NCBI GenBank assembly: GCA_943329075.2
Contig: CALQCM020000025.1
Span: 1-56,992 of the forward strand
DNA: 56,992 nt
DNA from: Chitinophaga pinensis
GTDB lineage: Bacteria > Pseudomonadota > Gammaproteobacteria > Burkholderiales > SG8-41
Reading direction: 5' to 3'
Below the pieces are notes generated by a model. It did no database searches, was not told the origin of the DNA, and saw only the letters and a list, made by a program, of their open reading frames with translations. Below are positions 260 to 51,998 of this stretch, piece after piece. Every line of letters starts with the position of its first letter. Position 1 is the stretch's first letter. The position numbers and the translations under genes were made by a program.

Positions 260-1873
260 ATGGCCGCCATCACCATACTGAATCCGAAAGTTTCCCAGCC
301 GGTCGCGCCCATTACCGGCGCCACCCGCATCGCCGACCTCAAGGGCGCGGTGATCGGCTTTGTCGACAACAGTAAACAGAACGCCGACCATTTCATCGAA
401 CGCGTTGGCGCGCTGCTGCGCGAGAACTACGGCATCGGTGCCAACGTGACGGTGCGCAAGCGCGCGCCGAAAGATGAGCTGGCCGACAGCGACCTGGCCG
501 AACTCGTCAAATGCGCTGCCGTCGTGCAGTGTTACGGCGACTGAGGAACCTCCGCTTCCATCAGCGTGGCTGATGGCGTGAAACTCGAAGCACACGGCAT
601 CCCGACCGCAACGATTTGCAGCACGGCGTTTGCCGGTGCCGCGCGCGTGCAGGCCGCCGGCCGCGGTTTTGCCGCACTGCCAATCGTTGAAATTCCGCAT
701 CCGATGCATACCGCTTCGCGTTCGCTGGTCGAAGGGCGCGCCGCCGAGGCTGCGCAGTCGATTGCCAAAGCTCTGCTCGAAGGCGCAGCGGCGCGCGGTG
801 CGCTGGGCGAGGACATTCTCGAAGATCGTATCGAAATCGATGCCGATCCGGTCGCACTCGAAGAATTCTTTTTCACTCACGGCTGGACTGACGGCCTGCC
901 GGTGACGCCGCCGACGGTGGCAAGTGTGGCCGCCATGCTGGCCGCGGCGGGCCGCGATCCGCACGAGACCATCGGGCCGATCCCGCCGCGCATGCGCGTA
1001 GCGACCATCGAGAAACTCGCCGTCAACGCGGTGATGGCGGGCTGCAAACCGGCCTATTTTCCGGTGGTGCTGGCGGCACTCGACTCCGTGCTCGACGACA
1101 ATATCCGCCTCTATGGGATACAGACCGCGACCAACACGAGTTCGGCGCTGCTCATCGTCAACGGCCCGATCGTCAAAGAGTTGGGACTGAATGCGCGCGG
1201 CAATGTATTCGGCCAGGGCAACCGCGCCAATGCCACCATCGGCCGCGCGCTGCAACTCATTTTGCGCAATGTCGGCGGCGACCTGCCGGGCGAAACCGAC
1301 ATGGCGACGCACGGCCACGCCGGCAAGTTCACCTTCTGCATTGCCGAGAACGAAGACGAGTCGCCGTGGGAGCCGCTACACGTCGAACGCGGCTTCAAGC
1401 GCGGCGACAGCACGGTGACGGCCATCGGCGGCTCGGGGCCGCAGAACGTCTTTACTTACGGTTGCGAAACCGGCGCCGAAATTCTCGATCATTTTGTCGG
1501 CGCACTGACCGGGCTTGGCCACAACAACATCATCTTCCCGACCGGACCGCTGTTTGTATTGAGTCCGGAGCATGCGCAGACGCTGGCACGCGACGGTTTC
1601 GACAAGCAGAAAATCAAGCAGCATTTGTTCGAGAAGGCGCGTATTCCGTTGACGCGTTTCGCTGCGCGCTCGATTACGGGTTTGCATCACCGCCGCTCGC
1701 GCTGGTTCGAGATTGCCGGCGATCCGACGCATATCGGTGTCGCCGACCGCATCAACGACATCAATATCGTCGTCGCCGGTGGCGCAGGCATACACTCGCA
1801 GTTCGTGCCGACCTCGTTCAGTTACGAGCCGGTGACGCGCCTGATTCGAACAAAAGCCGGCAGCGCGAAATAA
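260..1873 (+). CDS. UGSC-family selenoprotein fused to its partner domain (UGA = Sec95)
   Basis: One reading frame of 538 codons with a single in-frame TGA at 542-544. Read as selenocysteine it gives a 537-residue protein. Residues 1 to about 190 align with the two other UGSC proteins of this window (2918-3448 and 50377-50922): a Rossmann-like start with DNSKQNAD near residue 40, then G-D-Sec-G. Residues from about 198 match the stand-alone partner proteins at 1888-2907 and 50919-51998, with GWTDGLPV, MAGCKPAYFPVV, a VNGP motif, IGRALQL and SPWEPL. The motif after Sec is G-T-S instead of G-S-C, so the resolving Cys of the UxxC pair is absent. ATG 260 is chosen because GGGAG lies 5 nt upstream; GTG 236 is an alternative. 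A SECIS-like hairpin follows the TGA (558-576). The biochemical function is unknown; a redox role is inferred from Sec. The alternative is a nonsense-broken gene, which two sibling genes with TGA at the same site argue against. Confidence 0.85.
558..576 (+). promoter_or_regulatory. Candidate bacterial SECIS element after UGA 542
   Basis: A perfect 8-bp stem CCATCAGC / GCTGATGG closes a GTG triloop at 566-568. The loop starts after 21 intervening nt from the UGA, inside the 16-37 nt window known for bacterial SECIS elements, and it begins with G followed by U, the kind of loop bases SelB contacts. The stem lies inside the coding sequence. Function as a SECIS is inferred. Confidence 0.75.
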
Positions 1874-1887
1874 CGCGGAGGATTGCA

Positions 1888-2907
1888 GTGGCGGACAAGA
1901 TCGACGAATTCGAATTTTTCCTGCAGAAGGAATGGTCGGACGGCCTGCCAGTGGTTACGCCGACTGAAGCGCGCGTGCAGTGGATGTTGTCGGGAACGAA
2001 ACTTGATCCGGAGAAGGTCATCGGCCACATCGCGCCGGCCGGAGAGCCGGCGAGCGTGCGCACGATCGCAATTCACGCGCTGATGGCCGGCTGCAAACCC
2101 GAATACCTGCCGGTGGTGATCGGTGCGGTTGAAGTCATTACGCGCGAGGAATTCAATCTGGGTGGCGTGCAGTGCACGATGCACGGCGTGGCGCCGCTCA
2201 TGATCGTCAACGGCCCCTATGCCAAACAAATCGGGCTGCACGGCGGCAACGGTTGTTTCGGCCCGGGCTTTCGCGCTAATACCACTATCGGCCGTGCGAT
2301 TCGTCTGTTGTTGCTGAATGTCGGCGACGGCATACCCGGTGGCGCGTCGGCGACGATTTTCAGTTCACCGATTCGTTACAGCGCCTGCCTCACGGAAAAT
2401 GCAGAATTGAGTCCGTGGGAAAGCCTTGCCATGTCGCGCGGCTACAAGCCCGACGACAACGTGATCAGCGCGGTGATGGTCGAAGCGCCGCGTTTGCATT
2501 TCGATGACGTCAGCACGGAACCTGAACGGTTGCTGCGCGGCATCGCCGATTCGATGACGTCCACCGGTTCCTGGCATATGTGGTTCGCCTCGGGCATCGC
2601 GGTGGCTATGAGTCCGCAGCACGCCGGCCTCTGCGCCGCTGCCGGCATGAGCCGCGCCGAGGTGCATGCACGCTTGTGCGAATTGGCGGTGCGCCGTCAG
2701 GGCGACATCCGCAACGGCGGCAACTGGCGGCCCGAACGCGCGCGTGCGATGGGCGCCGATCCTGACGATGATGACTATCTGATCAAAGCGGTGAAGAATC
2801 CGGCAACGCTGCAGTTGTTTGTGGCGGGCGGACGCGGGCCGATCACCGCGGTGTGCCACGGCTGGAACGATTCGAGCCAGCCGGTGCATGGCCGTTACGA
2901 AGTTTGA
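1888..2907 (+). CDS. UGSC-partner family protein, function unknown
   Basis: 339 residues from GTG 1888, supported by GGAGG at 1877-1881; the frame is open further upstream but that part overlaps the previous gene out of frame. The whole protein is a homologue of the C-terminal half of the 260-1873 product and of the protein at 50919-51998. Shared landmarks are W-S-DGLPVVTPT near residue 16, the invariant-looking MAGCKPEYLPVV with a Cys, the VNGP motif, FRANTTIGRAIRL and SPWESL. No signal peptide or membrane segment is visible, so it is probably cytoplasmic. It sits between two selenoprotein genes with 14- and 10-nt gaps, so co-translation is likely. The conserved Cys and strict pairing with UGSC proteins suggest the two act together, perhaps as subunits of one enzyme; this is inference. 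Confidence 0.85.
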   Translation: MADKIDEFEFFLQKEWSDGLPVVTPTEARVQWMLSGTKLDPEKVIGHIAPAGEPASVRTIAIHALMAGCKPEYLPVVIGAVEVITREEFNLGGVQCTMHGVAPLMIVNGPYAKQIGLHGGNGCFGPGFRANTTIGRAIRLLLLNVGDGIPGGASATIFSSPIRYSACLTENAELSPWESLAMSRGYKPDDNVISAVMVEAPRLHFDDVSTEPERLLRGIADSMTSTGSWHMWFASGIAVAMSPQHAGLCAAAGMSRAEVHARLCELAVRRQGDIRNGGNWRPERARAMGADPDDDDYLIKAVKNPATLQLFVAGGRGPITAVCHGWNDSSQPVHGRYEV

Positions 2908-2917
2908 GGAGAGCGCA

Positions 2918-3448
2918 ATGACAGACGAACTCGGCTTCATCGATCCAACCGTCAAAAAGCAGCGCGCGCGTATCGCGCAGGCGCCGCGACCGATGGATCT
3001 GACCAATCGCGTGGTCGGTCTGCTCGACAATACCAAGGAGCAGGGCGAGCAGATTCTCGAATCGGTGGCTGAGGCATTGAAGCGCGATTACGGCGTGGCG
3101 CGTGTGGTGCTGCGGCGCAAGGAATATTTTTCGCGGCCGGCCTCGAAAGAGTTGCTCGATGAGATGGCAAAGGAGGTTGATGTCGCCATCTCGGCCCTCG
3201 GCGGATGAGGCTCATGCACGTTGTGCAGTGTGCACGACACAGTTGAATTCGAAAAGCGCGGCATTCCTTCGACGCTCTTCATCACGCAGATTTTCAAGAA
3301 CTCCGCGGTTTCGCAGTTCCGCAACAAGGGCATGGACGGCCATGCGCTGATCGAGTTGCCGCATCCGGTGAGCAATCTCACGCCGGCGCAGATGCACGCG
3401 CTCACGCACGAATACGTGCGCGAGATGGTGCGGCAGTTGACGACCTAA
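2918..3448 (+). CDS. UGSC-family selenoprotein (UGA = Sec97)
   Basis: 177 codons, 176 residues with Sec at residue 97 (TGA 3206-3208). The sequence around it is A-L-G-G-Sec-G-S-C-T, an exact UGSC motif giving a Sec-x-x-Cys pair with C100; another Cys follows at 103. The N-terminal half has the Rossmann-like VVGLLDNTKEQ segment shared with the first gene. The C-terminal part has GIPST and IELPHPVSN, parallel to GIPTA and IEIPHPMHT in the first gene. ATG 2918 has AGGAG 6 nt upstream, and the upstream stop codon overlaps that site. Without Sec insertion the product would stop at 96 residues and lose the conserved half. A SECIS-like hairpin lies at 3220-3238. The protein is probably cytoplasmic and redox-active (inferred), and is co-transcribed with its partner gene and a TctC gene. 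Confidence 0.9.
3220..3238 (+). promoter_or_regulatory. Candidate bacterial SECIS element after UGA 3206
   Basis: An 8-bp stem GTTGTGCA / TGCACGAC (one G-U wobble) closes a GTG triloop at 3228-3230, after 19 intervening nt from the UGA. Stem length and loop sequence are the same as in the hairpin at 558-576, although the two genes differ in sequence here. A shorter competing stem (3215-3219 with 3223-3227) is possible but places its loop too near the UGA. Confidence 0.72.
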
Positions 3449-3451
3449 CGC

Positions 3452-4429
3452 ATGAGAGGCCTCACGTCATTTTTGTGTGCGCTTGCTGCGGCCACGCTCG
3501 CGATACCGGTGCATGCGGCAGATGGCGAGCGTTATCCCGCGCGGCCCATCCGTTTGATCGTGCCATTCGCGCCGGGCGGCACGGTGGACGTCATCGCGCG
3601 CCTGATCGGCGCCAAAATCGGCGAGGCCACGGGCCAGCAGGTGGTGATCGACAACCGCGGCGGCGCCGGCGGCGTGGTTGGCACCGAACTGGTGGTGCGT
3701 GCCGTGCCCGACGGTTACACGCTGCTGCTGCACAGCGCAGCACTGGCCTACGAGCCGGCCTTGCGCGCGAAGCTGCCCTACGACGCGTTGAAGGATCTTG
3801 CGACTATCAGTGTCATCGGCGCCACGCCGAATCTGCTGGTGATGCATCCGTCGTTCGCCGCGCGTTCCGCGCGTGATCTCGTGCAATCGGCAAAACAGAA
3901 GCCGGGTGCGGTGACCTATGGCACCGGCGGCATCGGCAGTTCCTCGCATCTGGCGGTCGAACTGTTCCGCAACATGGCGGGTGTGACTTTCAATCACGTG
4001 CCGTACAAAGGCGCGGGACCGGCATTGACGGAGGTCATTGCCGGTCAGATCGATTTCATGATCGCCACCATGCCCGGCGCGGTGATGCATGTGCGCAGTA
4101 CGCGCCTGCGTGCGATCGGAATTTCGACACTCAAGCGTTCGCCCGAATTGCCCGAGGTGCCGACGATTGCCGAAAGCGGCGTGCCCGGTTATGAATATGT
4201 GGCATGGTTCGGTCTGCTCGGCCCGGCCGCGCTGTCGCCCCCGCGCGTAACGCAAATCCAGAATCTCTTCGCGCAGGCGGTGAACAGCCCGGACTTGAAG
4301 AGACGTCTTGAGGCTGAAGGCGTCGAGCCGCAACTGACGACGCCGCAGCAGTTCCGCACCACACTCGCAGCGGAAACCCTGCGCTGGAAAAAAATTATCG
4401 AAGCCGCCGGCATCAAGGCGGCGAACTAA
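3452..4429 (+). CDS. Bug/TctC-type periplasmic solute-binding protein
   Basis: 325 residues. Proteins of this family bind small carboxylates in the periplasm for tripartite tricarboxylate transporters. The signal peptide is about residues 1-22, ending VHA-A. The family landmarks follow: YPARPIRLIVPFAPGG, DNRGGAGG, PDGYTLL, a VPYKG segment, and VPTIAESG with PGYE near residue 245. Length is normal. The gene starts 3 nt after the selenoprotein stop codon, so it belongs to that operon and may deliver the substrate of the UGSC pathway. The ligand cannot be predicted. Confidence 0.93.
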   Translation: MRGLTSFLCALAAATLAIPVHAADGERYPARPIRLIVPFAPGGTVDVIARLIGAKIGEATGQQVVIDNRGGAGGVVGTELVVRAVPDGYTLLLHSAALAYEPALRAKLPYDALKDLATISVIGATPNLLVMHPSFAARSARDLVQSAKQKPGAVTYGTGGIGSSSHLAVELFRNMAGVTFNHVPYKGAGPALTEVIAGQIDFMIATMPGAVMHVRSTRLRAIGISTLKRSPELPEVPTIAESGVPGYEYVAWFGLLGPAALSPPRVTQIQNLFAQAVNSPDLKRRLEAEGVEPQLTTPQQFRTTLAAETLRWKKIIEAAGIKAAN

Positions 4430-4450
4430 CCGCATCAATAAGGGGCAGTC

Positions 4451-5809
4451 ATGGCAGATGAAATCCTGAAAAACGGCGTTACTGAAAAACTCGCTGCCTG
4501 GCTGACCAGCCACCGTTACGAACAGATGCCGGATGCCGTCAAGGCCAAGGCGGTCGAGGTGGTATTCGATTCGGTGGGCGCGATGACGGCCTGTTCGACG
4601 CTGCCGGAAGTCAAAGCCATCGTCGAACTGATGGGCGAGCAGGGCGGCAAAGGCGACTGCACCATCATCGGCCACAGCGGCTCGACTTCGGTGATCAATG
4701 CCGCGATGTGCAATGGCGGCATGGCGCACGGCAATGAAGTCGACCCAGTGCATTCCACTTCCGTCGGTGGTCACGTTGCAGCGGGGCCGGTGCCCTCGGC
4801 GCTGGCGATCGGCGAATCGATCGGTGCTTCCGGCAAGGACATTTTGCGCGCGGTGGTGCTGGGTTACGAAGTCGGCGGCCGCCTGATGACGATTTTTTAC
4901 CGCGAGCGCGATTACACCAAGCGCCGCTTCTATCACACCGCAGTGGCGGCCAATATCAGCTCGGCGGTGAGCGCCGGGGTGCTGCTTGGCCTCGACACGC
5001 AGGCGATGCAGGTGGCAATGTGTCTGGCCACCTATCAGGCGGCAGGCCCCGACAACATGACCAAGGACCCGGTGCACATGGGCAAGACCTTCCAGGTTGC
5101 CGCGGCGAACCGCAACGGCGTCACTGCTGCGCTGCTCGCGCACAAGGGATGCTACGCGCCAACCGACATCCTCGACGGCACGCATGGCCTGTTCGACGCT
5201 TATCTGAACACACCCGAGGCCGGCCCTGAACTCCTCGACAAACTCGGCGAGTATTATTCGATTACCGACGTCATGCACAAGCGTTATTCAGCCGGCACGC
5301 CGAACCAGACCTATCTCGCCGCGTTGTTCCGCCTGCTCAAAGACAACGCGATCAAGCCTGAACAGATCGAGCAGATCGAAATCCAGATGCCGACGCGCGG
5401 CGTCAAGCGCGTGCCGACCACGCGCCACGCCTCGATCTCGGCGCTGAAAGTCAGTGCAATTGCCGCCGCCACCGGCAAGCTCGACTTCTATCAGCTGCAC
5501 GGCCCGCAGGCAGCGGTTGATGCCGCCATCGCCTCGATGATAGCCCGCGTCAAATTCGTCGGCCGCGACGACTGGACCGGCATGGAACACGGCCGCCACG
5601 CCATCGTCATCATCCGCACGCCGGATGGAAAAAAATACGAGGAAGAAACGTGGTTCACACCGATGGACCGTAGCGAGCTTTCCGCCAAATTCAACGAGCT
5701 TGTTGAGCCGCAGTTTGGTGCGGCGCGCACCGCTAAGCTGGAAAAATCGCTGCTTGAAATAGAAGCCTTGCCGAACATCAAATCATTAATGCAGCAATTG
5801 CGCGCGTAA
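4451..5809 (+). CDS. MmgE/PrpD family dehydratase-like protein
   Basis: 452 residues, full length for the family that includes 2-methylcitrate dehydratase PrpD and cis-aconitate decarboxylase. Landmarks are the early VFDSVGAMTA helix, GHSGSTSVINAAMCNGGMAHGNEVDP near residues 75-102, and KTFQVAAANRNGVTAALLA near 216. No signal peptide, so cytoplasmic. It lies 21 nt after the TctC gene and is probably the last gene of the operon that begins at 260. The likely role is dehydration or isomerisation of a hydroxy-acid taken up by the neighbouring binding protein. The substrate is not inferable, because this family is broad and often misnamed. Confidence 0.92.
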   Translation: MADEILKNGVTEKLAAWLTSHRYEQMPDAVKAKAVEVVFDSVGAMTACSTLPEVKAIVELMGEQGGKGDCTIIGHSGSTSVINAAMCNGGMAHGNEVDPVHSTSVGGHVAAGPVPSALAIGESIGASGKDILRAVVLGYEVGGRLMTIFYRERDYTKRRFYHTAVAANISSAVSAGVLLGLDTQAMQVAMCLATYQAAGPDNMTKDPVHMGKTFQVAAANRNGVTAALLAHKGCYAPTDILDGTHGLFDAYLNTPEAGPELLDKLGEYYSITDVMHKRYSAGTPNQTYLAALFRLLKDNAIKPEQIEQIEIQMPTRGVKRVPTTRHASISALKVSAIAAATGKLDFYQLHGPQAAVDAAIASMIARVKFVGRDDWTGMEHGRHAIVIIRTPDGKKYEEETWFTPMDRSELSAKFNELVEPQFGAARTAKLEKSLLEIEALPNIKSLMQQLRA

Positions 5810-5839
5810 ATTTCATGACCACAGGCGCCCGCATTTTCC

Positions 5840-6120
5840 TCCCCCTGAGAGCCGCCGAGCAGCACAGCCACGCCGGGGGAAGTCGGCGAGCACTGTCTGA
5901 GCCCTTGTCGTTTTTTGACAAGGGCGAGTTGCGCAGCCGCCCGGCGTGGCGAGCAGCGCAGGGGAGTCCGCAGGACCGGCGAACCGGGGGTCGCCTTCTT
6001 TTGGTTACTTTTCTTGGCGAATCAAGAAAAGTAATCAGCCGCCGGGCTGCCCCCGGCGAAGTTGAAGCACAGCGCCCCGCGTGGGCAACGAGTTGCCCAC
6101 CCTACAGTTGGCTTCGGTGC
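5840..6120. repeat. Dispersed intergenic repeat region rich in palindromes
   Basis: This stretch carries a perfect 8-bp hairpin (5902-5909 with 5917-5924, T-rich loop) and a perfect 11-bp hairpin (6005-6015 with 6024-6034, 8-nt loop) inside a TTGGTTACTTTTCTTGGCGA segment. From memory, that segment is a common non-coding repeat of beta- and gammaproteobacteria. It ends with an arm reading GTGGGCAACGAGTTGCCCAC (6081-6100), itself palindromic. The open frame running through it from ATG 5815 looks incidental. The element abuts the signal peptide of the next gene. Confidence 0.7.
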
Positions 6121-7065
6121 TTGCTGTCTGCAACAGCCATCCTGCTTGGCCTACCTGCAATGACCTCGAGCGCTATTGCACAGCCTTATCCCTACAAGCC
6201 GGTGCGCATCTTGAGCGCCGAAGTCGGCGGCGGCGCCGACCTCGCCGCGCGCGTGATTGCGCAACGCATGGCGCTGCCGCTGGGCAAACAGGTGGTGGTG
6301 GAAAACCGTCCCGGCCGCTTGATCGGTGACCTACTGGTGAAATCCACGCCCGACGGCTACACCTTGCTCCTCGTTAGCAGCACGATCCTGTTCGCGCCGG
6401 TGCTGGAGCAGACGGGCTACGACCCGGTGAAGGATTTCGCGCCGATTTCGCTGGTGGCGACCAATCCGAACATTGTCGTCGTGCATGCCTCGGTGGCCGC
6501 GACTTCGATCCGGGAGTTGATCGCGCTGGCGAAGGCCAAGCCGGGGGTGCTCAATTACGGCTCCGGGGGCACTGGTTCGTCGATTCATCTGGCGGTCGAA
6601 TTGTTCAAGCAGATGGCCGGCGTCGATATCACACGCATCGCCTACAAGGGCGCGGGGCCGGCAATGAACGATCTGCTCGGCGGTCAGTTGCAGTTGATGT
6701 TCGCGACGGCCGGTTCGGTGATGCGCCATGTTAATGGTGGCCGCCTGCGCGCGCTGGCGGTCACCAGCGCGCAGCCTTCGGCGCTGGCGCCGGGCCTGCC
6801 GACGGTGGCTGCGGCAGGCTTGCCCGGCTATGAGATGGTGGCGATTTACGCGCTCGCCGCACCGCTGAAAACGCCGGCTGCCATCGTCAACCAACTTAAT
6901 CAGGTCGTCGTGCAGTCGCTGCACGATGCCGAGTTGAAAGAGCGCTTTCTCGTCAGCGGCATGGAAGCACAATCGAGTGCGACGGGGGCGCTGGCTGCGC
7001 GTATCAAAGGTGAGGTTGCCACGGTTGCAAAGCTGGTGAAGAGCGCCGGCATACGCGCCGAATAG
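6121..7065 (+). CDS. Bug/TctC-type solute-binding protein with a disturbed 5' end
   Basis: The mature part (from about 6181, AQPYPYKPVRI) is a normal TctC-type binding protein with PDGYTLL, IAYKGAGPA and PGYEMVA. The usual DNRxGAGG segment is degenerate (ENRPGRLIG). The start is unclear. TTG 6121 gives a hydrophobic leader ending SSAIA-Q but without an Arg/Lys-rich start and without a Shine-Dalgarno sequence. The frame is open back to ATG 5815, but that extension is the palindromic repeat just upstream. ATG 6160 would remove most of the signal peptide. I infer that a repeat has replaced the original start region, so expression is doubtful. Confidence 0.75.
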   Translation: MLSATAILLGLPAMTSSAIAQPYPYKPVRILSAEVGGGADLAARVIAQRMALPLGKQVVVENRPGRLIGDLLVKSTPDGYTLLLVSSTILFAPVLEQTGYDPVKDFAPISLVATNPNIVVVHASVAATSIRELIALAKAKPGVLNYGSGGTGSSIHLAVELFKQMAGVDITRIAYKGAGPAMNDLLGGQLQLMFATAGSVMRHVNGGRLRALAVTSAQPSALAPGLPTVAAAGLPGYEMVAIYALAAPLKTPAAIVNQLNQVVVQSLHDAELKERFLVSGMEAQSSATGALAARIKGEVATVAKLVKSAGIRAE

Positions 7066-15641: not shown

Positions 15642-15798
15642 CGCACAATTCGTGCGTCGGCATGGTGCGCGGGCGCAGCTTGCGGGTGCTGGTGTAATCG
15701 TCTAAATTGCCTGTGGTGCGTGAGGCACGCAAGCGTTATGCGCGCCGCCGAAAACAACAGTGCCGGCGAATCACACCGGCCGTTACGAGGAAAATCCA

Positions 15799-16875
15799 AT
15801 GTTATTGCCCGCGCAAAAAAAGGTGGTCACCGCGTTTGATGAATACATCGGTTCGTTTGCCATTTCACGCCGCGGTTTTCTCGCCGGCCTCGGCGCAGTC
15901 GGCGCCGGTGCGCTGCTGCCCGGTTGCACGACGACGAGTGCGCTGTCCGGCAAACCGCACCGCATCGACGTGCATCACCACATCGTCGCGCCGACTTATT
16001 CGGCGGCACTGAAGGCGCGCGGGCAGGGCCACATCGCGTGGTCGGTGCAGAAATCAATCGAGGACATGGACAAGAGCGGCATCGCTACCGCGCTGACCTC
16101 GCTGATCCAGCCGGCGATGGCGATTGGCGACGTCGCCGGCAACCGCCGCCTCGCGCGCGAATCCAACGAATACGCGGCGAAAATTGCACGCGATTACCCC
16201 GGGCGTTTCGGCTCGTATGCGGCGCTGCCGTTTACCGATACCGAGGGCGCGCTGAAAGAAATCGAATACGCGCTCGACACCCTCAAGGCCGAGGGTTTCT
16301 GTCTGATGACGAGTTACGGCAGCAAATACCTCGGCGACCCGGCGTTTTTTCCGGTGCTCGAAGAACTCAACCGCCGCAAGGCCATCGTCTACGTGCATCC
16401 GCTGGCGCCGCAGTGCTGCGCAGCGATACTGCCGGATGTGCCGGTCGGTACCATCGAATACGCCGTGGACTCGACGCGCACCATGGCCAGCCTCGTTTTT
16501 GGCGGGGCGGCCGCGAAGTATCCGGGCATCCGCTGGATTTTCTCGCACAGCGGCGGCACCACGCCTTTCCTGCTGTCGCGTTTCATCCGCCAGGAGCAGG
16601 ACATGAAGGGCGAGGCGGTCAAACGCATGCCCAACGGCGTGATGTACGAATACAAGAAGTTTTATTACGAGACCGCACAGGGCAACCACGCCGGCGCGCT
16701 CGACGCCCTGCTGCGCATCATTCCGGTTTCGCAGATCCTCTACGGTACCGACTTCCCGTATCGCGATGGCGCCGAGGTCAATGAAGGGTTGGGCAATTAT
16801 CGCTTCAGTTCGTCGGAGCGCATGGCGATCGACCGCGACAATGCGTTGCGTATGATGCCGCGTTTGCAGGGCTGA
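15799..16875 (+). CDS. Tat-exported amidohydrolase 2 family lipoprotein
   Basis: 358 residues from ATG 15799, with GAGGAAA 5 nt upstream; an in-frame ATG at 15760 lacks one. The N-terminus carries a twin-arginine motif (SRRGFLAG) and then LLPGC, a possible lipobox, so the enzyme is probably exported folded and lipid-anchored. The body is an ACMSD/gamma-resorcylate-decarboxylase-type TIM barrel: IDVHHHI (metal His pair), the strand Cys-rich HPLAPQCC, FSHSGGTTPF and the late GTDFPY Asp. Members are metal-dependent hydrolases or decarboxylases. It is a close paralogue of the next gene. Confidence 0.92.
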   Translation: MLLPAQKKVVTAFDEYIGSFAISRRGFLAGLGAVGAGALLPGCTTTSALSGKPHRIDVHHHIVAPTYSAALKARGQGHIAWSVQKSIEDMDKSGIATALTSLIQPAMAIGDVAGNRRLARESNEYAAKIARDYPGRFGSYAALPFTDTEGALKEIEYALDTLKAEGFCLMTSYGSKYLGDPAFFPVLEELNRRKAIVYVHPLAPQCCAAILPDVPVGTIEYAVDSTRTMASLVFGGAAAKYPGIRWIFSHSGGTTPFLLSRFIRQEQDMKGEAVKRMPNGVMYEYKKFYYETAQGNHAGALDALLRIIPVSQILYGTDFPYRDGAEVNEGLGNYRFSSSERMAIDRDNALRMMPRLQG

Positions 16876-16895
16876 TGTTCAATTGATAGTGATTC

Positions 16896-16979
16896 GTCAC
16901 TCCCGCGAAAGCGGGAGTCCAGTCGAAGCCCCATGCGTTGTAAAAACCTGGATTCCCGCTTTCGCGGGAATGACGAAAC
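16896..16979. repeat. Paired REP-like palindromes
   Basis: Two inverted copies of a short palindrome, CTCCCGCGAAAGCGGGAG (16899-16916) and TTCCCGCTTTCGCGGGAA (16953-16970), flanked by GTCA/TGAC. The same unit occurs at 33748, 45307 and 54027. It lies between the two tandem amidohydrolase genes. Confidence 0.85.
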
Positions 16980-17034
16980 TGAAACATAACGCGCATCATT
17001 CTCGAACAATGTTTGAAGTTTCCGGAGGCGACAC

Positions 17035-18114
17035 ATGAACGACAACAACAATGGCCTTGATAGCCTGTTTGAAGACATTCTCGCGGTACCGCGCCGCCGT
17101 TTCCTGCAGAGTGCCGCGGGGCTCGGCGCCGGCGTACTGCTGCCTGGTTGCGAGTCACTGCCGAAAACCGCGTCCGGCCAGACGCTGCACCGCATCGACA
17201 TCCACCACCACCTGCTGCCGCCGAAATACGTCGCCGAGCTGCCGAAGCTGGTGAAGGGTGAGAGCCCGCCGACCAACTGGACGCCGGCGCGCTCGCTCGA
17301 AGATATGGACAAGAACGGCATCGCCATGTCGATGCTGAGCCTGATGCAGCCGGGCTCCTGGTTCGGCGACGTCGCGCTGGGCCGCCGCATTTCACGCGAG
17401 AGCAACGACTACGCCGCCGCGGTGGTGCGCGATCACCCGACGCGCTTTGGCATTTTCGCCACGCTGCCATTGCCGGACATCGAAGGCAGTCTGAAGGAAA
17501 TCGCTTACGCGCTCGACACGCTGAAGGCCGACGGCTTCGGCCTGATGACGAGTTACGCCGGCAAATATCTCGGCGACCCGGCCTTCTGGCCGGTGCTCGA
17601 AGAACTGAACCGCAGGAAGGCCGTGGTCTACAACCATCCGCTGTCGGCCGACTGCTGCCGCAACCCGATTCCGCAGTACATGGTGAATTCGGCGATTGAA
17701 TACGCGACCGACACGTCAAGGACGATTGCGAGCCTGTTGTTCAGCGGGGCGGCGGCGCGTTTCCCCGACATCAAGTGGATCCATTCGCACGGCGGCGGCA
17801 CCATGCCGATGCTGTGGCAGCGTTACGTCCGCCAGGAGGCAACGCTGAAAAACAAACAGGAACTCCTGCCCAACGGTGTGTTGCACGAAATCAAGCGTTT
17901 CTACTACGACACCGCGCAGGCCAATTCGCCGGGCGCGCTCGCCGCGCTGTTGAAACTGGTGTCGACCTCGCAAGTGATGTTCGGCACCGATTACCCCTAC
18001 CGCCCCGGGGCCGAGGTGGTCGAAGGCCTGACCGGCTACGGTTTTTCCGCCGCCGAGTTGCGCGCCATCGACCGCGACAATGCGCTGCGCCTGATTCCGC
18101 GCCTGAAAACCTGA
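17035..18114 (+). CDS. Tat-exported amidohydrolase 2 family lipoprotein (second copy)
   Basis: 359 residues, GGAGG at 17022-17026. Same architecture as the preceding gene: twin-arginine motif (RRRFLQSA), LLPGC lipobox-like Cys, IDIHHHLL metal pair, SIEDM-equivalent SLEDMDKNGIA, HPLSADCC, HSHGGGTMPM and GTDYPY. Long identical stretches such as EIAYALDTLKA indicate a tandem duplication. The stretch after the Tat motif also keeps the paired Cys of the HPL segment. It probably decarboxylates or hydrolyses a related compound in the periplasm. The 159-nt spacer with REP units may allow separate expression. Confidence 0.92.
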   Translation: MNDNNNGLDSLFEDILAVPRRRFLQSAAGLGAGVLLPGCESLPKTASGQTLHRIDIHHHLLPPKYVAELPKLVKGESPPTNWTPARSLEDMDKNGIAMSMLSLMQPGSWFGDVALGRRISRESNDYAAAVVRDHPTRFGIFATLPLPDIEGSLKEIAYALDTLKADGFGLMTSYAGKYLGDPAFWPVLEELNRRKAVVYNHPLSADCCRNPIPQYMVNSAIEYATDTSRTIASLLFSGAAARFPDIKWIHSHGGGTMPMLWQRYVRQEATLKNKQELLPNGVLHEIKRFYYDTAQANSPGALAALLKLVSTSQVMFGTDYPYRPGAEVVEGLTGYGFSAAELRAIDRDNALRLIPRLKT

Positions 18115-45433: not shown

Positions 45434-45443
45434 CAATATGAAA

Positions 45444-46640
45444 TCAGCGCGTCAATTGCTGGCGCAGCCATTTCCACGCCGCCGGCCCCCATTCGCGTTC
45501 GTTTTTCGCTGCGATGTGACCGTCATCCGGATAGACGCGTGCGACACGGCCGTCGGCCGGGCCGGACTCCAGCGCCAGATACAGATTGCCGATCGGGGTG
45601 AGGTGATCGATCTTGCCGTTGACGAGGAACATCGGCATCGTCAGTTTATCGAGCAGGCCATTGTCTTTCAGCGACCAGCGCAGGAATTCCTTGCGTTGCT
45701 CGTCCTCGCTCATTTCGGTAATCACCGGACGCGTGCCGCGCGGGCCGAACCAGTTTTTCTTGGCGCGTTCAACCGCCGCCATGCGCAGTTCCTTGCGCTC
45801 TTCATCGGTGCCCCAGTAACCGACACCACCCGGCGCGCAGGAGATCAGCGCCTTGATACGTTGATCGTGCGCAGCGAGCCGCATCACCCACAGACCACCG
45901 CGGCTCACACCGAAGGCGCCCAGCCGGTTGCCATCGATCTCGGGGCGTTTCTGCAAAGCGTCGAGTGCCGATTGCCACGCCACCACCGATTCCGGCGCGT
46001 GGGCAAACGAGGTCTGGCCGGTGCCCGGTGCATCGACCACCAGTGCGGCCATGCCTTCGTTCATTGCGCCGTCAGCGTATTTCTCGCGGTCTTCCTTGTA
46101 CATGTCGCCGCCGCACATCACGAGCACGGCCGGCACTTTGTTCGTTGCCGACGCACCTTTCGGCACACGCAGATAACCGACCGCTTCATGGCCGTCGCGT
46201 GCCACCTTGATGACCTCATGCGTGCCGTCGCGCAATTCAACAGTGCGGCGGAAACAGTCGAGGTAACGGTCGTACGATTCTTTTTTGATCGCACTCATCT
46301 CCGGCGGGCAGATCGGCGAGCCGGAGTGATAGGGCGCCGGGAAACGCGCCAGGCTGTAATAGGTCTTGGCATGGATGAAGCCGTTGCGCGCCGCCGCTTT
46401 GTCGCCGCGTTTCAGTGCGTCCTCGGCTTGCTTGACGAATTTTTCAGCGACCGCGCTCCATGCCGGCACCCAGTCTTCGTCTTCGGTGCCCTTCAATGTC
46501 GCAACGGTGTCGAGCATCGGCTGCAGATCATCGACCAGATTGAACCAGCGACGGTAGAAGCCGCCGATGGCGACGACAAACGGATCTTCATCGGCGCGAA
46601 TAGGTAGTGCCGCCATCTGGGCGGCTTTATCAACTGCCAT
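45444..46640 (-). CDS. Alpha/beta hydrolase with N-terminal helical domain
   Basis: 398 residues from ATG 46638-46640 (GGGGAG upstream); the frame is open to 46835 but that part is not needed. Catalytic triad: S246 in GVSRGG, D345 (NGKIDHLTP) and H375 (DDGHIA). The helical N-terminal part (about 1-135), followed by the core domain, resembles the 2,6-dihydroxypseudooxynicotine hydrolase/FrsA-like group, some of which cleave C-C bonds. No signal peptide. Divergent from the TctC gene at 46802, with which it may share regulation. Confidence 0.85.
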   Translation of the reverse strand: MAVDKAAQMAALPIRADEDPFVVAIGGFYRRWFNLVDDLQPMLDTVATLKGTEDEDWVPAWSAVAEKFVKQAEDALKRGDKAAARNGFIHAKTYYSLARFPAPYHSGSPICPPEMSAIKKESYDRYLDCFRRTVELRDGTHEVIKVARDGHEAVGYLRVPKGASATNKVPAVLVMCGGDMYKEDREKYADGAMNEGMAALVVDAPGTGQTSFAHAPESVVAWQSALDALQKRPEIDGNRLGAFGVSRGGLWVMRLAAHDQRIKALISCAPGGVGYWGTDEERKELRMAAVERAKKNWFGPRGTRPVITEMSEDEQRKEFLRWSLKDNGLLDKLTMPMFLVNGKIDHLTPIGNLYLALESGPADGRVARVYPDDGHIAAKNEREWGPAAWKWLRQQLTR

Positions 46641-46801
46641 GCTGTTCTCCCCTTGATTTGAATAGTTGCCGCGCGCGACTGGACAGCGCGGGCAAGGCGT
46701 GAACATACGGCGCGCCTGCGATTCTGTAAAGAGGCGCGCAGCCGTCGGCTGGCGATGCCTGTCGATTCGCGGTAGATTGCCGCCTTCGATAAGGGGGAAC
46801 G

Positions 46802-47770
46802 ATGCAGCACAGCGCAACCGCGTGTCTGTTGGCATTACTGCTCTGCGGCCCCTGTGTTGCTGCGGAGCAAGCTTATCCGTCGCGCATTATTCGCATCGTC
46901 GTGCCGTTCACGCCGGGCGGGCCGCAGGATGTCAACGCGCGCCTGATCGGACAGAAACTCACCGAAGCCTGGGGCCAGCCGGTGGTGGTGGAGAACCGTG
47001 CAGCCGCCGGCGGCATTGTCGCCACTGAATATGTTTCGAAGGCGGCGCCCGACGGTTACACGCTGCTGATGGGCAACCCGACACCGCTCACCATCGCGCC
47101 CAGCCTCTACGACAAACTCGGCTACGATCCGCAGCGCCAGTTCGCGCCGGTGATCCTTGTCACGCAGACGGCCAGCGTGTTCGTCGTGCATCCGAGCGTG
47201 CCGGCGAAAAATATCAGTGAACTCGTCGCACTGGCGAAAACGAAACCGGGGCGCCTGATCTACGGCACATCGGGGATCGGCTCGACTGGGCATCTCACGA
47301 TCGAACTCTTCAGCACGCTGACCGGCATCACGATGACGCATGTGCCCTACAAAGGCGCCTCACAGGCGATCAGCGACATGATCGCCGGGCAGATCGATCT
47401 CCGCATGTTTCCGATTCCGGTGACCATTCCGCTGCTGAGAGATAAACGCGTGCGACCGTTGGGTGTGACGTCGTTGCAGCGCTTTCCATTGTTGCCCGAT
47501 GTGCCGACGATCGCCGAACAGGGCCTGCTCGGATTTGAATCGACCAACTGGAACGGCATCCTCGCGCCGGCCGGCACGCCGCGCGAGATTGTGATGAAGC
47601 TGCACGACGAAATCGCGCGCCGCGTGCTCGCCCCCGAGGAACGTGACAAACTCATCCGCGAAGGTTATGAGATCAGCGGCCTCGGCCCCGATCAATACGC
47701 GGCCTTTCTGCGCGCGGAGACGGCGAAGTGGGCAAAGGTCATCAAGGCAGGCAACGTCAAGGCGGAATAA
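46802..47770 (+). CDS. Bug/TctC-type solute-binding protein
   Basis: 322 residues, signal peptide to about residue 20 (CVAA-EQ). Family segments: RIVVPFTPGGPQD, ENRAAAGGIVA, PDGYTLL, VPYKGASQAI and VPTIAEQGLLGFE. It heads a run of two TctC genes (the next starts 77 nt later) and is divergent from the alpha/beta hydrolase gene, which points to a shared substrate. GGGGGA precedes ATG 46802. Confidence 0.93.
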   Translation: MQHSATACLLALLLCGPCVAAEQAYPSRIIRIVVPFTPGGPQDVNARLIGQKLTEAWGQPVVVENRAAAGGIVATEYVSKAAPDGYTLLMGNPTPLTIAPSLYDKLGYDPQRQFAPVILVTQTASVFVVHPSVPAKNISELVALAKTKPGRLIYGTSGIGSTGHLTIELFSTLTGITMTHVPYKGASQAISDMIAGQIDLRMFPIPVTIPLLRDKRVRPLGVTSLQRFPLLPDVPTIAEQGLLGFESTNWNGILAPAGTPREIVMKLHDEIARRVLAPEERDKLIREGYEISGLGPDQYAAFLRAETAKWAKVIKAGNVKAE

Positions 47771-47772
47771 CG

Positions 47773-47847
47773 ATGAAAAACTGCATTGTGCAAGTTGGCG
47801 GTACCCTAAGAATTCCCTCTCCCCGCTATCGCGGGGCGAGGGAGTAA
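47773..47847 (+). promoter_or_regulatory. Leader ORF and hairpin covering the ribosome-binding site of the next gene
   Basis: A 24-codon leader frame (47773-47847) begins 2 nt after the previous stop codon, and its TAA overlaps the next start (TAATG). Inside it, CCCTCTCCCCGC (47815-47826) pairs with GCGGGGCGAGGG (47831-47842) with one mismatch; the right arm contains the GAGG Shine-Dalgarno of the gene at 47847. The ribosome-binding site would be closed in the folded state, so translation may depend on ribosomes reading the leader. This is inferred; the palindrome may be a dispersed repeat that landed here. Confidence 0.45.
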
Positions 47848-48809
47848 TGCTTGGCGGCCGACGATTGTTGGTAGTGATCGGCTTTTTTGCCGTTGCTGCC
47901 GGTGCCGCCGACTATCCGGTGCGCCCGATCCGCATGATCGTGCCGCAGGCGCCGGGCAGCGCATCCGACACCGTGGCGCGTCTCGTCGCCGCCGAACTGA
48001 CGCCGCGGCTCGGCCAGCAGGTGGTGGTTGATAACCGGCCCGGCGGCGCGCTGATGATCGGTATGGAAATGACGGCGCGCGCCGCGCCCGACGGTTACAC
48101 CATCGGTTACGCGCCGGTCGGCGGACTCGTCATCAGTCCGAACGTTTCGGGCAAGCCGCCGTACGATTCGAATAAGGATTTTGCCGCCATCATCATGACG
48201 GCGTTCAACACGATGCTGCTCGCATCGAACCCGAACCTGCCGGTGAAAAACATCCGCGAGCTGATCGATTACGCGAAAGCGAATCCAACCAAATTGTCGA
48301 ATGCCTCGTCGGGCAACGGCACGCCCGGCCACGTCGGCATGGAACTTTTCAAACTAATGACCAACACGCAGATCGTGCACATTCCGTACAAAGGCGGCGC
48401 CGCCGGTATTACCGCAACCATCTCGGGCGAAGTGCAACTGATGATGGAAAGCCTCAACTCGATCACACCGAATGCCAAAGCCGGCCGCGTGCGCGCACTC
48501 GGCGTCACCGGATCGAAGCGCGCGGCGGTGCTGCCCGACGTGCCGACCGTTGCCGAAGCCGGTGTGCCCGGTTACGAAGCGATTACCTGGAACGGCATCG
48601 TTGCACCCGCCGGCATGCCGCGCGCGATGATTGCGCGGCTCAACACCGAGATCAATCGAGCACTGGCCGAACCGGGGCTACAGCAGAAACTCGCCGCCAT
48701 CGGTGCCGAACCCGCCGGCGGCACACCGGAGGAATTCGCCAAATTCATCCGCAGCGAATACGCAAAGTGGGGTGACGTCGTGCGGCGCTCCGGCGCGAAG
48801 ATGGATTGA
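47847..48809 (+). CDS. Bug/TctC-type solute-binding protein
   Basis: 320 residues from ATG 47847; the frame is open back to 47643 but overlaps the previous gene. Signal peptide to about residue 20 (AAGA-ADY). Family segments: RMIVPQAPGSASD, DNRPGGALMIG, PDGYTIG, IPYKGGAAGI and VPTVAEAGVPGYE. The usual FVPVxxxxxxP region has four or more Asn (NTMLLASNPNLP). Its ribosome-binding site lies in a hairpin (see 47773-47847). Confidence 0.92.
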   Translation: MLGGRRLLVVIGFFAVAAGAADYPVRPIRMIVPQAPGSASDTVARLVAAELTPRLGQQVVVDNRPGGALMIGMEMTARAAPDGYTIGYAPVGGLVISPNVSGKPPYDSNKDFAAIIMTAFNTMLLASNPNLPVKNIRELIDYAKANPTKLSNASSGNGTPGHVGMELFKLMTNTQIVHIPYKGGAAGITATISGEVQLMMESLNSITPNAKAGRVRALGVTGSKRAAVLPDVPTVAEAGVPGYEAITWNGIVAPAGMPRAMIARLNTEINRALAEPGLQQKLAAIGAEPAGGTPEEFAKFIRSEYAKWGDVVRRSGAKMD

Positions 48810-48835
48810 ATGTTCAGGATCGACAGGAACGCCAA

Positions 48836-49033
48836 ATGAAAATCAAACGCATCATGTCGGAAGTAAAGCTGGTGATCGCCGACGTCGAGGTCGAAATCAA
48901 CGGCACCATGCGTAGCAGCCCGACGCTGTGCGCGCTGATTGCGAACGCCGAGGGGGATGAATCCGTCGTGCCGCTCAACACGCCGGACGGGCGGCCGATT
49001 TTCATGAAGATGGAAAACGCAATCAGGTTGTAA
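48836..49033 (+). CDS. Small protein of unknown function
   Basis: 65 residues from ATG 48836, with AGGAA 8 nt upstream; an alternative start lies at 48806. The sequence (SEVKLVIADVEVEINGTMR, then LIANAEGDESVVPLN and MENAIRL) looks like a compact alpha/beta domain without a signal peptide. I do not recognise the family. It directly follows the TctC gene with a 26-nt gap and may be its partner. Confidence 0.55.
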   Translation: MKIKRIMSEVKLVIADVEVEINGTMRSSPTLCALIANAEGDESVVPLNTPDGRPIFMKMENAIRL

Positions 49034-49100
49034 GGCCTGAGCCATCGGTTTCCGATTTTCTGCGGACGACAGATCACACGCGCCCGGCGACATTCAGTCT

Positions 49101-49190
49101 TTCCCTTCCCCCTTGTGGGGGAGGGCAGGGTGGGGGGTAGGCACACACCAATCCCCCCACATCCCAACCTTCCCCCACAAGGGGGGAAGG
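49101..49190. repeat. C/G-rich palindromic repeat
   Basis: Inverted arms CCTTCCCCCTTGTGGGGGA (near 49104-49122) and its near complement at 49168-49189 enclose a G-rich then C-rich core. Between convergent genes; related in type to the elements at 188 and 47815. Confidence 0.65.
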
Positions 49191-49229
49191 AGTCAGTAAA
49201 CCAATCGCCTCGCAAAAAAATCGTGCGAC

Positions 49230-50195
49230 TTATTCCGGCTTGATGCCAGCACTGCGGATCACGCCGGACCATTTGTTGATTTCATTTTTCAGATAACGGT
49301 CGAATTCCGCAGGCGTGCCGGCGACAACGCGGGTGCCATCGGCTTCGAGCCGTTGTTTCATGTCAGCGAGTGCCAGCACGCGGGTGGTTTCACGGTGCAA
49401 TCGATCGATCACCGGCAACGGCGTTCCCGCGGTCGTCAGCAGCCCGTACCACTGTGGCGCGTCGTAGCCGGGTAGACCGGACTCCGCGATCGTCGGCACT
49501 TCGGGCAAAACCGCTGCGCGTTTCAATGTGGTGACGCCCAGCGCGCGCAGCTTGCCGCTGCGCAGATGCTGGATGACGGTGAGTGCGGTTGGCGTCATCA
49601 GCGCGATCTCGCCGGACAACAGGCTGACCATGCCCTGTCCCAAGCCTTTGTAATGCGCAAACACGACGTCGATCTTCGCCATCGATTTGAACAGCTCGAG
49701 CGACAAATGCGGCGCGCTGCCGATGCCGGCGGTGCCGCCGGTGAGGATGCCCGGCCGGGCTTTCGCCAGCGCGATGAGTTGCTTCACGGACGTCGCTGGC
49801 ACTGATGGATGCACGGTCAATACGCTCGGCGCATCGGCGAGTTGCGTGATTGGCGCCAGATCGCGCAGCGTGTCGTAGGGCAGCTTCGCGTACATGCTCG
49901 GATTGATGGCAAGCCCCGCTGGTGCGATCAATAGCGTGTAGCCATCGGGCGGCGCCTTGGCGACGTAATCGATGCCGATGATGCCGCCGGCACCGGCGCG
50001 ATTTTCGACAATCACCTGCTGGCCCAGCACCTCGGTGAGTTTCTGCGCCAGCTGGCGGCCGAAAATATCGCTGCCGCCGCCGGGCGAAGTGGGCGCGATC
50101 AGGCGCAAAGGTTTGGTTGGATAACCTTGCGCGCAGACGGCGCTGCCGACGGCAAACAGTGCAAATGTGCAGAAGAAAGTGTGAGTTGTTTTCAT
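49230..50195 (-). CDS. Bug/TctC-type solute-binding protein
   Basis: 321 residues; signal peptide to about residue 22 (AVCA-Q). Family segments: RLIAPTSPGGGSD, ENRAGAGGIIG, PDGYTLL, AHYKGLGQGM and VPTIAESGLPGYD. It is divergent from the third selenoprotein gene with a 181-nt gap, so both promoters lie there. Confidence 0.93.
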   Translation of the reverse strand: MKTTHTFFCTFALFAVGSAVCAQGYPTKPLRLIAPTSPGGGSDIFGRQLAQKLTEVLGQQVIVENRAGAGGIIGIDYVAKAPPDGYTLLIAPAGLAINPSMYAKLPYDTLRDLAPITQLADAPSVLTVHPSVPATSVKQLIALAKARPGILTGGTAGIGSAPHLSLELFKSMAKIDVVFAHYKGLGQGMVSLLSGEIALMTPTALTVIQHLRSGKLRALGVTTLKRAAVLPEVPTIAESGLPGYDAPQWYGLLTTAGTPLPVIDRLHRETTRVLALADMKQRLEADGTRVVAGTPAEFDRYLKNEINKWSGVIRSAGIKPE

Positions 50196-50376
50196 GTTGT
50201 TCGTCGCGTTGCTTTACCTTGCATTGGATCACGGCGGCTATCTTGACAGTGTATGCGACCGGGCATAACCTCGAACGGCTTCGTGCGTCACACGCGTCGC
50301 GTGCGGACGCAGGCGAATACAACAATGTTACCGGTATCGTGGCCAGCACAGAACCGGAATTTTCAGGAGGCTATCC

Positions 50377-50922
50377 ATGGTACTCAGAGTTCTCGAACCT
50401 TTGGCGGAAATCAACAAACCGGCTGATAGCAAGCCGATGCGCCGCATTCAATCCTTGCAGGGCAAACGCGCCGGCATGTTGTGGGGCGGTCATGCGGCCA
50501 CCGTCAAATTCTGGCCAGTGTTTGAAAGCGTGGCCGAGAAAAAATTCGCCGCCGAACCGGTGCGCCTCTACAAAAAAAGCAGCTGGAACCCGGCGCCGCT
50601 GCCAGACATCGAGGCTTTTGCCGGAAAAATAGACTACGCCTTCGTTGGCGTCGGCGCCTGAGGGTCCTGCACATCAGCTACCGTGCGTGACACGGTCAAT
50701 ATGGTGCAACAGGGCGTGCCCACCGTCGGCTTCATTCATGAGCCGTTCGAAAAACTCGCGCGCATGCAGGCCAAGCAACTCGGCATGGCGAACGCGCCGT
50801 TGCTGATCTATTCGCAGGACCTGCCAAGCAAGGACCCCGCTGATTTCGTGTTGAAAAAAGCCGAGGGCATTGCCGAGCAGGTCGTCAACATACTGCTCTC
50901 GCAAACCGGAGGTGTGGCATGA
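50377..50922 (+). CDS. UGSC-family selenoprotein (UGA = Sec95)
   Basis: 182 codons, 181 residues with Sec at residue 95 (TGA 50659-50661). The context is G-V-G-A-Sec-G-S-C-T, an exact UGSC motif giving a Sec-x-x-Cys pair with C98. AGGAGG at 50365-50370, 6 nt before ATG 50377, makes the start sure. The N-terminal half contains KRAGMLWGGHAATVKFWP, the counterpart of the DNSKQNAD and DNTKEQG segments. The C-terminal half continues RDTVNMVQQGVPTVGFIHEP, parallel to HDTVEFEKRGIPSTLFITQ of the second gene. The stop codon overlaps the partner gene start (ATGA). Without Sec decoding only 94 residues would be made and coupling with the partner would be lost. Function unknown, probably redox. Confidence 0.9.
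50680..50696 (+). promoter_or_regulatory. Candidate bacterial SECIS element after UGA 50659
   Basis: A perfect 6-bp stem ACCGTG / CACGGT closes a 5-nt loop CGTGA; the loop begins after 24 intervening nt from the UGA and has G at its second base followed by U. It is shorter than the two other SECIS-like stems but meets the same spacing and loop rules. Confidence 0.65.
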
Positions 50923-51998
50923 GCGAAGTGCAGCTGGTTTCGAAAGTTTTCGAATGCGCGGACATCGACGATTTCACTGAACTCGCCTACAAGAACGGCT
51001 GGACCGACGGTCTGCCGGTGCTGCCGCCGACGGAGAAAAAAGTTCGCGCCATGCTCGATTACATCAAGCGCGATCCGCAGGAGGTGCTCGGTGTGGTGTC
51101 ATGCGGCGAGGGCATGGCGACCATTGAGAAGGTCGCGATCAACGCGGTGATGGCGGGCTGTCTGCCTGAATATCTGCCGGTGGTGATCACCGCAGTCGAA
51201 GCGATGCTCGACAACACCTTCGAGTTGATGCGCGTGCAGTGCACGACCGGCGGGCCCGGACCGCTGGCCATCATCAGCGGTCCCGTGGTGAAGAAACTCA
51301 ATTTCAATTGCGGTGAGGGTGTTTTCACCGGCACCGGTCATCGCGCGAACTCGACGATCGGCCGCGCCATCCGTCTCATCCTCTGGAACATCGGGTTGGG
51401 GCGTCCCGGCCAGATGTCGCACGCGACCATGGGGCATCCCGGACGTTATTCCTATCTCGTCGCCGAGCGTCCGCCGGAAGAGGCGAACCCGTGGGAGCCG
51501 CTGCATGTCACCAACGGGTTGAAAGCCGAAGACAGCGCGGTGTCGATGTTCCCGTCGGGCGCGCACATCCAGTTCAATCTCGGCGCCGGTGCAAACACGG
51601 TCGAAAACAACCTCTTCGTCGTCAAGGACGTGCTGACCAACCTCGGTCAGTTCCAGCAGGCGATGCAGAAGCTGCTGGTCATTAATCCGCAGGGCGCACA
51701 CGTGCTGCAAGCGGCGGGTTACGACAAGGCGCGTTTCCGCGACGAACTCATCAAGCAAAGCGTGCGCGCCGTGCGCGACATCAAGCGCACCGGCGGCACT
51801 TCCACCACCGCAACCTGGCACTGGAGCAAGCTCGTTGATGTCAACGACGACGATGCGATGGTGCCGGCGATGGTCGATGCGCACCACTTGCAGATCATGG
51901 TCGCCGGCGGCTGGGCGCCACCGGTCTGCCAGTGCGTTTGCATCAATGCGATGCATGGTGAAATGGTGACGAAGAAAATCAACTGGTCGTGGGATTGA
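50919..51998 (+). CDS. UGSC-partner family protein, function unknown
   Basis: 359 residues, starting inside the stop codon of the selenoprotein gene. Homologous to 1888-2907 and to the C-terminal half of 260-1873: GWTDGLPVLPPT near residue 27, MAGCLPEYLPVV, TGHRANSTIGRAIRL, NPWEPL. The C-terminal VAGGWAPPVCQCVCINAMHGE holds three closely spaced Cys that the other copies do not share. Cytoplasmic by lack of a leader. The overlap argues that the partner and the selenoprotein work as one complex. The reaction is unknown. Confidence 0.87.
   Translation: MSEVQLVSKVFECADIDDFTELAYKNGWTDGLPVLPPTEKKVRAMLDYIKRDPQEVLGVVSCGEGMATIEKVAINAVMAGCLPEYLPVVITAVEAMLDNTFELMRVQCTTGGPGPLAIISGPVVKKLNFNCGEGVFTGTGHRANSTIGRAIRLILWNIGLGRPGQMSHATMGHPGRYSYLVAERPPEEANPWEPLHVTNGLKAEDSAVSMFPSGAHIQFNLGAGANTVENNLFVVKDVLTNLGQFQQAMQKLLVINPQGAHVLQAAGYDKARFRDELIKQSVRAVRDIKRTGGTSTTATWHWSKLVDVNDDDAMVPAMVDAHHLQIMVAGGWAPPVCQCVCINAMHGEMVTKKINWSWD

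Follow-up and report, generated by a model that had tools for sequence, protein, structure and literature searches.

What does an in-frame TGA signify when it returns at the same place in three related genes of one stretch of DNA? The question is raised by contig 25 (CALQCM020000025.1) of a draft genome deposited as Chitinophaga pinensis (GCA_943329075.2; Burkholderiales, SG8-41), which comprises 4.97 Mb in 167 contigs and is 86% complete. The whole contig, 56,992 nucleotides, is referred to as the window. A preliminary description had picked out three homologous genes, each interrupted by a single in-frame TGA (codon 95, 97 and 95, respectively), as members of the UGSC family and had proposed that the TGA encodes selenocysteine (Sec, U). 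From sequence comparisons, we put the probability at roughly 0.85 that Sec is decoded here and that the UGSC proteins act in a two-component partnership with a second protein of about 340 residues, which we name DGLP after its D-G-L-P motif. The elements of the window concerned are the following:

260..1873, forward strand: UGSC-DGLP fusion gene, predicted selenoprotein of 537 aa via TGA read-through (UGSC at about residues 6-173, DGLP at about 194-533)
542..544, forward strand: in-frame TGA, predicted Sec95 (U-G-T-S) of the fusion gene; TGC in the orthologue L098
558..576, forward strand: predicted hairpin of the fusion gene resembling a selenocysteine insertion sequence (SECIS), with an 8-bp stem and a GUG loop
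1888..2907, forward strand: stand-alone DGLP gene with a GTG start, 14 bp 3' of the fusion gene; no Pfam or NCBIfam match
2918..3448, forward strand: UGSC gene, predicted selenoprotein of 176 aa; PF24696 and NF041046 matches
3206..3208, forward strand: in-frame TGA, predicted Sec97 (U-G-S-C) of 2918-3448
3220..3238, forward strand: predicted SECIS-like hairpin of 2918-3448; GUG loop at nt 22-24, the U of UGA being 0
50377..50922, forward strand: UGSC gene, predicted selenoprotein of 181 aa; PF24696 match
50659..50661, forward strand: in-frame TGA, predicted Sec95 (U-G-S-C) of 50377-50922; TGA also in the L056 homologue
50680..50696, forward strand: predicted SECIS-like hairpin of 50377-50922 in another register (CGUGA loop); also in L056 and L057
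50919..51998, forward strand: DGLP gene, overlapping the UGSC stop codon (ATGA)

Predicted decoding of the in-frame TGAs

Translation with TGA read as U bore out the three single TGAs and their codon positions and gave the contexts YGD-U-GTS (260-1873), LGG-U-GSC (2918-3448) and VGA-U-GSC (50377-50922). The exact U-G-S-C that had been claimed for two of the genes is present in the latter two, and the first reads U-G-T-S. All three proteins belong to the UGSC family, as had been stated, matching PF24696 with 128.5, 163 and 105.2 bits in gene order (cut-off 25), while the equivalog cut-off of NF041046 (125 bits) is passed by 2918-3448 only (132.6 bits, compared with 109.3 for 260-1873 and 64.6 for 50377-50922). 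The product of 260-1873 exceeds the length of a UGSC protein because its last 340 or so residues form a second domain, DGLP. On these sequence features, the three genes are supported as UGSC-family selenoprotein genes. The selenoprotein reading of the preliminary description is supported, with two corrections to its gene layout: 260-1873 encodes two domains, and the first two UGSC genes are separated by a DGLP gene, 1888-2907.

The genome also carries the machinery for Sec decoding. tRNA-Sec (75.5 bits, gathering score 47), SelB (434 bits, cut-off 242), SelA (603 bits, cut-off 268) and SelD (416 bits, cut-off 125) were all found, including the selB and tRNA-Sec genes whose absence had been named as the observation that would overturn the proposal. 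The selB gene, a gene for a TrxB-like reductase (239 bits, under the model cut-off of 343) and the tRNA-Sec gene follow one another on one strand (L029:9923-12997), selA is found on contig 7, at a distance of about 5 kb from one of the UGSC-DGLP fusion genes, and SelD (contig 9, 64485-65411), with one in-frame TGA of its own, is itself a predicted selenoprotein. Among 150 genomes of the order, 18 had a UGSC match (17 above the cut-off), and tRNA-Sec was found in 15 of these 18 compared with 31 of the 132 UGSC-negative genomes (Fisher p 1.2e-6).

PF24696 has 31 matches in the genome. All 30 above the cut-off contain exactly one TGA, which in 30/30 occupies the U position of U-G-x, and no TAA or TAG; with this number of copies a chance origin of the in-frame TGAs is excluded. 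The 31st match (contig 34, 22.7 bits, below the cut-off) is a stop-free UGSC-DGLP fusion gene with Met at the Sec position (L034:5693-7396:-). Stop-free UGSC matches below the cut-off also occur in two other genomes, G001 and G008. Between 50377-50922 and its homologue in L056, in which the TGA is conserved, differences at codon positions 1, 2 and 3 number 17, 8 and 47 before the TGA and 15, 10 and 34 after it; judged by this comparison, coding constraint, and with it purifying selection, persists beyond the TGA. The L098 orthologue of 260-1873 (66% identical, 529 residues) has TGC at the Sec codon. Among 77 aligned pieces from the named DGLP loci described below, 73 have TGA at the Sec site, two have TGC, and two are the halves of a Blastococcus gene (L123, Candidatus Blastococcus massiliensis) split by a TAG (L123:5299-5301), after which a hairpin-like sequence follows. 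L123 agrees with the UGSC proteins of Geodermatophilaceae, which have the same motif and for which Sec has been assigned to UAG (PMC5330540), as opposed to UGA here; this and all further statements on cited papers refer to the excerpts available. Three independent nonsense mutations, discounted already in the preliminary description, are rejected on the grounds of the shared TGA position in the 30 genomic copies and the constraint past it.

SECIS-like hairpins were compared among 103 TGA-bearing UGSC genes (30 from the own genome and 73 from the named loci, with relatedness among the genes uncontrolled). In one hairpin register, 60 of the 103 genes form 6/6 inner pairs, compared with a mean of 18.7 and a maximum of 32 in 1000 arm shuffles, and the loop of these 60 hairpins is always GUN. 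One pair, which joins the third base of a mostly Trp or Cys codon with the third base two codons on, is C-G in 29 genes and G-C in 31. Measured against synonymous recoding, hairpin stability in the 30 genes has a mean z of -1.10 (12 below -1.64, 9 above 0), versus -0.09 for 149 control windows (12 below -1.64). The hairpins of the window itself do not stand out: in gene order, their z values are -0.88, +0.70 and -0.44 relative to shuffles, none of them unusual alone, and -1.16, -0.14 and +0.29 relative to synonymous recoding. As they are unremarkable singly, the SECIS evidence holds for the family and not for each gene.

The probable DGLP partner and the size of the UGSC family

The three genes of the preliminary description stand, but DGLP, whether fused or neighbouring, and the extent of the paralogue family had escaped it. 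DGLP has no match to any Pfam or NCBIfam model and no relative in the PDB by sequence; PDB sequence searches with UGSC and DGLP gave no or weak matches (best E 0.03), and a search of viral contigs with P0003 gave none. At least 7,764 DGLP homologues were found in a protein search in which 8,000 candidates were scored, and the closest named match to a DGLP gene of the window (85% identity) comes from a betaproteobacterial metagenome-assembled genome (MAG), L056. The genome contains 33 DGLP matches, none with an internal stop.

Fourteen of the 31 UGSC copies are fused to DGLP, and another 15 have a same-strand DGLP gene no more than 1.1 kb away. For the remaining two, C75 and C43, a contig end removes the upstream side; next to C75, the truncated end of an apparent DGLP gene was recognised by eye. 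Seen from the other side, 29 of the 33 DGLP copies are paired with UGSC; the copy C44:36125 faces an opposite-strand UGSC gene at a contig end, and the neighbourhoods of copies C21, C167 and C5 stand outside the pairing count. Among the named DGLP loci (the best 80 of 582 confirmed), 66 have UGSC and 14 had none seen. UGSC and DGLP distances correlate over the 29 pairs (Mantel r 0.76) and over the 15 unfused pairs (0.755), with 0 of 2000 permutations reaching these values. Taken together, this makes it likely, from sequence, that each UGSC-DGLP pair is one two-component selenol enzyme. Some named loci have SelA-, SelB- or SelD-type genes no more than 4 kb from the pair. In MAGs of Henriciella and Hyphomonadaceae (L085, L100, L101), at most 3 kb separates a UGSC-DGLP pair from a gene for SelA, SelB or a reductase-SelD-like fusion.

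The 31 UGSC copies have a median pairwise identity of 0.25 and a maximum of 0.81, which marks them as diverged paralogues and not as strain duplicates. On the same ground we reject the idea that mixed strains account for the copy number, and the related genome G008, 100% complete in about 30 contigs, still shows 21 matches, 19 of them with one TGA. The same-genus genome G001 has 58 matches, some of which are pieces of one gene; counted from the listing, 51 have one TGA only, three a TGA and another stop, and four are stop-free. One TGA is present in 21/21 matches of G038 and in 30/35 of G050, where the other five are partial matches. UGSC was found in 60/60 same-family genomes sampled (own included), with 1 to at least 48 matches each, and every match listed for these 60 genomes has exactly one TGA.

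The UGSC family itself (PF24696, NF041046; Zhang and Gladyshev) is known, and our proteins resemble it in the match to its hidden Markov model (HMM), the U-G-S-C motif and the UGA at the Sec site. They differ from the published family in copy number, with 31 copies in this genome and 58 in the relative compared with a 2016 count of 33 UGSC genes across 26 organisms (PMC5029168; its abstract mentions more than 5,200 sequenced organisms), as well as in the near-constant association with DGLP in the own genome and the modelled flavodoxin-like fold. In 2008, the UGSC-containing selenoprotein was most frequent in nonmarine samples, and a fusion of UGSC with a conserved but functionally uncharacterised domain, Unknown_1, was reported (PMC2398784). 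Unknown_1, the sequence of which we have not seen, is probably the DGLP domain; unlike in that fusion, 15 of the 31 copies here have the domain encoded by a gene of its own next door. The family and its fusion to an unknown domain are already known; a copy number of this size and the adjacent partner gene were not found in print.

One study reports a selenoproteome of at least 46 genes (PMC12013277), and the largest bacterial selenoproteomes named in the excerpts comprise 57 and 63 genes, in mostly anaerobic groups (PMC13188914). Compared with these record totals, one family alone contributes 30 single-TGA genes in our draft genome and 51 in the relative. In the literature excerpts we found no account of a one-family expansion this large, although the metagenomic source of the 63-gene record was not covered and may overlap. 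The bacterium is predicted, from its gene sequences, to make unusually many selenium proteins of one kind.

In the structural model (mean predicted local distance difference test score, pLDDT, 89), the UGSC domain has a doubly wound, Rossmann/flavodoxin- and receiver-like sheet, with the predicted Sec between strand 87-93 and helix 96-111. A thioredoxin-like fold had been guessed in 2008 (PMC2398784); our models would instead class the fold as flavodoxin-like. The fusion model had no Foldseek match at E 0.001 or better, and none of the 50 listed structural matches, mostly over the UGSC domain, is named thioredoxin, a result that excludes no fold.

Genes adjacent to UGSC-DGLP pairs

Four further genes of the window stand in the same gene runs as the UGSC and DGLP genes:

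3452..4429, forward strand: TctC-family (Bug) substrate-binding protein, 3 bp 3' of the UGSC gene 2918-3448 (PF03401, 231.8 bits)
4451..5809, forward strand: MmgE/PrpD-family enzyme, in the gene run of 2918-3448
5815..7065, forward strand: second TctC-like gene of the run, found with a profile built here; true start probably more internal
51989..52978, forward strand: TctC-like gene, found with the same profile, overlapping the DGLP gene 50919-51998

With this profile, 13 TctC-like genes were counted in the window. Using a simple gene caller, the TctC-like cluster was found at 29/31 UGSC loci of the own genome and the cluster including the window's MmgE/PrpD gene at 10/31. These are raw counts: 82 clustered TctC genes at the 29/31 loci compare with at least 150 TctC (Bug) matches genome-wide (150 of 601 candidates scored), with no background correction and with shared genes that may count twice. 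Among 67 other neighbours scanned (68 were selected), six are MmgE/PrpD proteins and every other family is represented three times or fewer. At the named loci, where Pfam identified one representative per cluster and the profile built here identified TctC, luciferase-like monooxygenases occur at 10 loci, L062 included (16 genes by clustering; the representative is from a Dehalococcoidia MAG), TctC at 14/80, SelA and SelB at 6 each and MmgE/PrpD at 5. Elsewhere in the window (15760-18114), two similar genes are neighbours, the first of which encodes an amidohydrolase with a weak match to a twin-arginine translocation (TAT) signal.

Possible activities and their significance

UGSC was listed in 2008 and is still among the families of largely uncharacterised function (PMC2398784, PMC13188914). 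The GrdB model (protein B of glycine/sarcosine/betaine reductase) matched 6/21 and the PrdB model (D-proline reductase) 1/21 of the UGSC sequences scanned (21 of 31) at E 0.01 or better. UGSC would resemble these reductases in a weak HMM similarity around the Sec site, in the U-x-x-C motif and in having several substrate-specific paralogues per genome (PMC10838667). In contrast to GrdB and PrdB, UGSC stays far under the NCBIfam equivalog cut-offs (21.9 bits versus 602.2 for TIGR01917), DGLP has no Pfam or NCBIfam model, and the genome encodes a separate PrdB-like protein (L139:1201-1959:-, contig 6) with an in-frame TGA (U156, U-P-N-C-T-C). A profile comparison places the Sec of this protein against that of UGSC, non-significantly (hhalign probability 2.6%). 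Among the 120 public relatives listed for it, most have a length of 155 aa, i.e. they end at the TGA, and such records indicate that gene calls ending at TGA hide genes of this kind.

The GrdB-type matches together with TctC, MmgE/PrpD and other neighbours led us to view UGSC-DGLP as a two-component selenol enzyme specific for its substrate. For relatives of GrdB, attack of the selenol on a polarised carbon is assumed, and cleavage of fluoroacetate in this manner has been proposed for FarB/FarE (PMC10838667). By analogy, the chemistry that we tentatively prefer is a reductive cleavage of a carbon-heteroatom bond, similar to glycine reductase and acting on carboxylates, though the odds are somewhat against it. 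In this scheme, the in-frame UGA would be read as Sec in UGSC, with the substrate bound by DGLP. A carbon with a leaving group in a carboxylate-type substrate would be attacked by the selenol, as proposed for protein B of glycine and proline reductase. The nearby Cys (in copies with U-x-x-C) and cellular dithiols would then reset the enzyme, perhaps through the TrxB-like enzyme whose gene lies between selB and that for tRNA-Sec. With TctC uptake proteins often encoded close by in the own genome, the numerous diverged copies would represent one enzyme per substrate.

Alternatively, UGSC-DGLP proteins might be general redox proteins that reduce thiol-disulphide bonds or peroxides, with DGLP as a scaffold. 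We consider this rather unlikely: U-x-x-C does resemble a redox pair, a thioredoxin-like fold was guessed earlier (PMC2398784) and the TrxB-like gene is located between selB and the tRNA-Sec gene, whereas the model is flavodoxin/receiver-like with no thioredoxin named among its listed structural matches, some 30 diverged copies, several of them by catabolic genes, would be unexpected, and the U-G-T-S of the window fusion lacks a second Cys. Less likely again is a selenol-dependent enzyme of the hydratase, lyase or isomerase type that acts on hydroxy- or unsaturated acids and in which DGLP would resemble class I fumarate hydratase in fold. This would be in line with the first 24 Foldseek rows of DGLP, all of them fumarate hydratases, which we take to be class I, and with the MmgE/PrpD and, less often, enoyl-CoA hydratase genes that recur near the pairs. 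Finally, that the TGAs are true stops, in pseudogenes or with the second halves made as separate products from internal GTG or TTG starts downstream of the TGA (e.g. 566-1873), is highly improbable given the identically placed TGA and absence of any other stop in the 30/30 copies above the cut-off, the purifying selection past it, the TGC in L098 and the TAG in L123, the co-varying hairpins and the complete Sec machinery of the genome.

Returning to the two-component selenol enzyme, the genome contains two haem-copper oxidase genes, which suggests that oxygen respiration is possible. So many selenols are surprising in an organism that may respire oxygen, because few aerobic bacteria are said to retain selenoproteins (PMC13188914). 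One might speculate, with more doubt than confidence, that the UGSC-DGLP pairs form a new class of two-component selenol enzymes and that an oxidase-carrying betaproteobacterial lineage runs much of its small-acid catabolism on dozens of them, each tuned to a substrate. A near-constant partner without a Pfam or NCBIfam model, a disputed fold and dozens of diverged natural pairs make the function directly testable. If true, such a reliance on selenols would invert the rule that selenoproteins are seldom retained by bacteria that respire oxygen.

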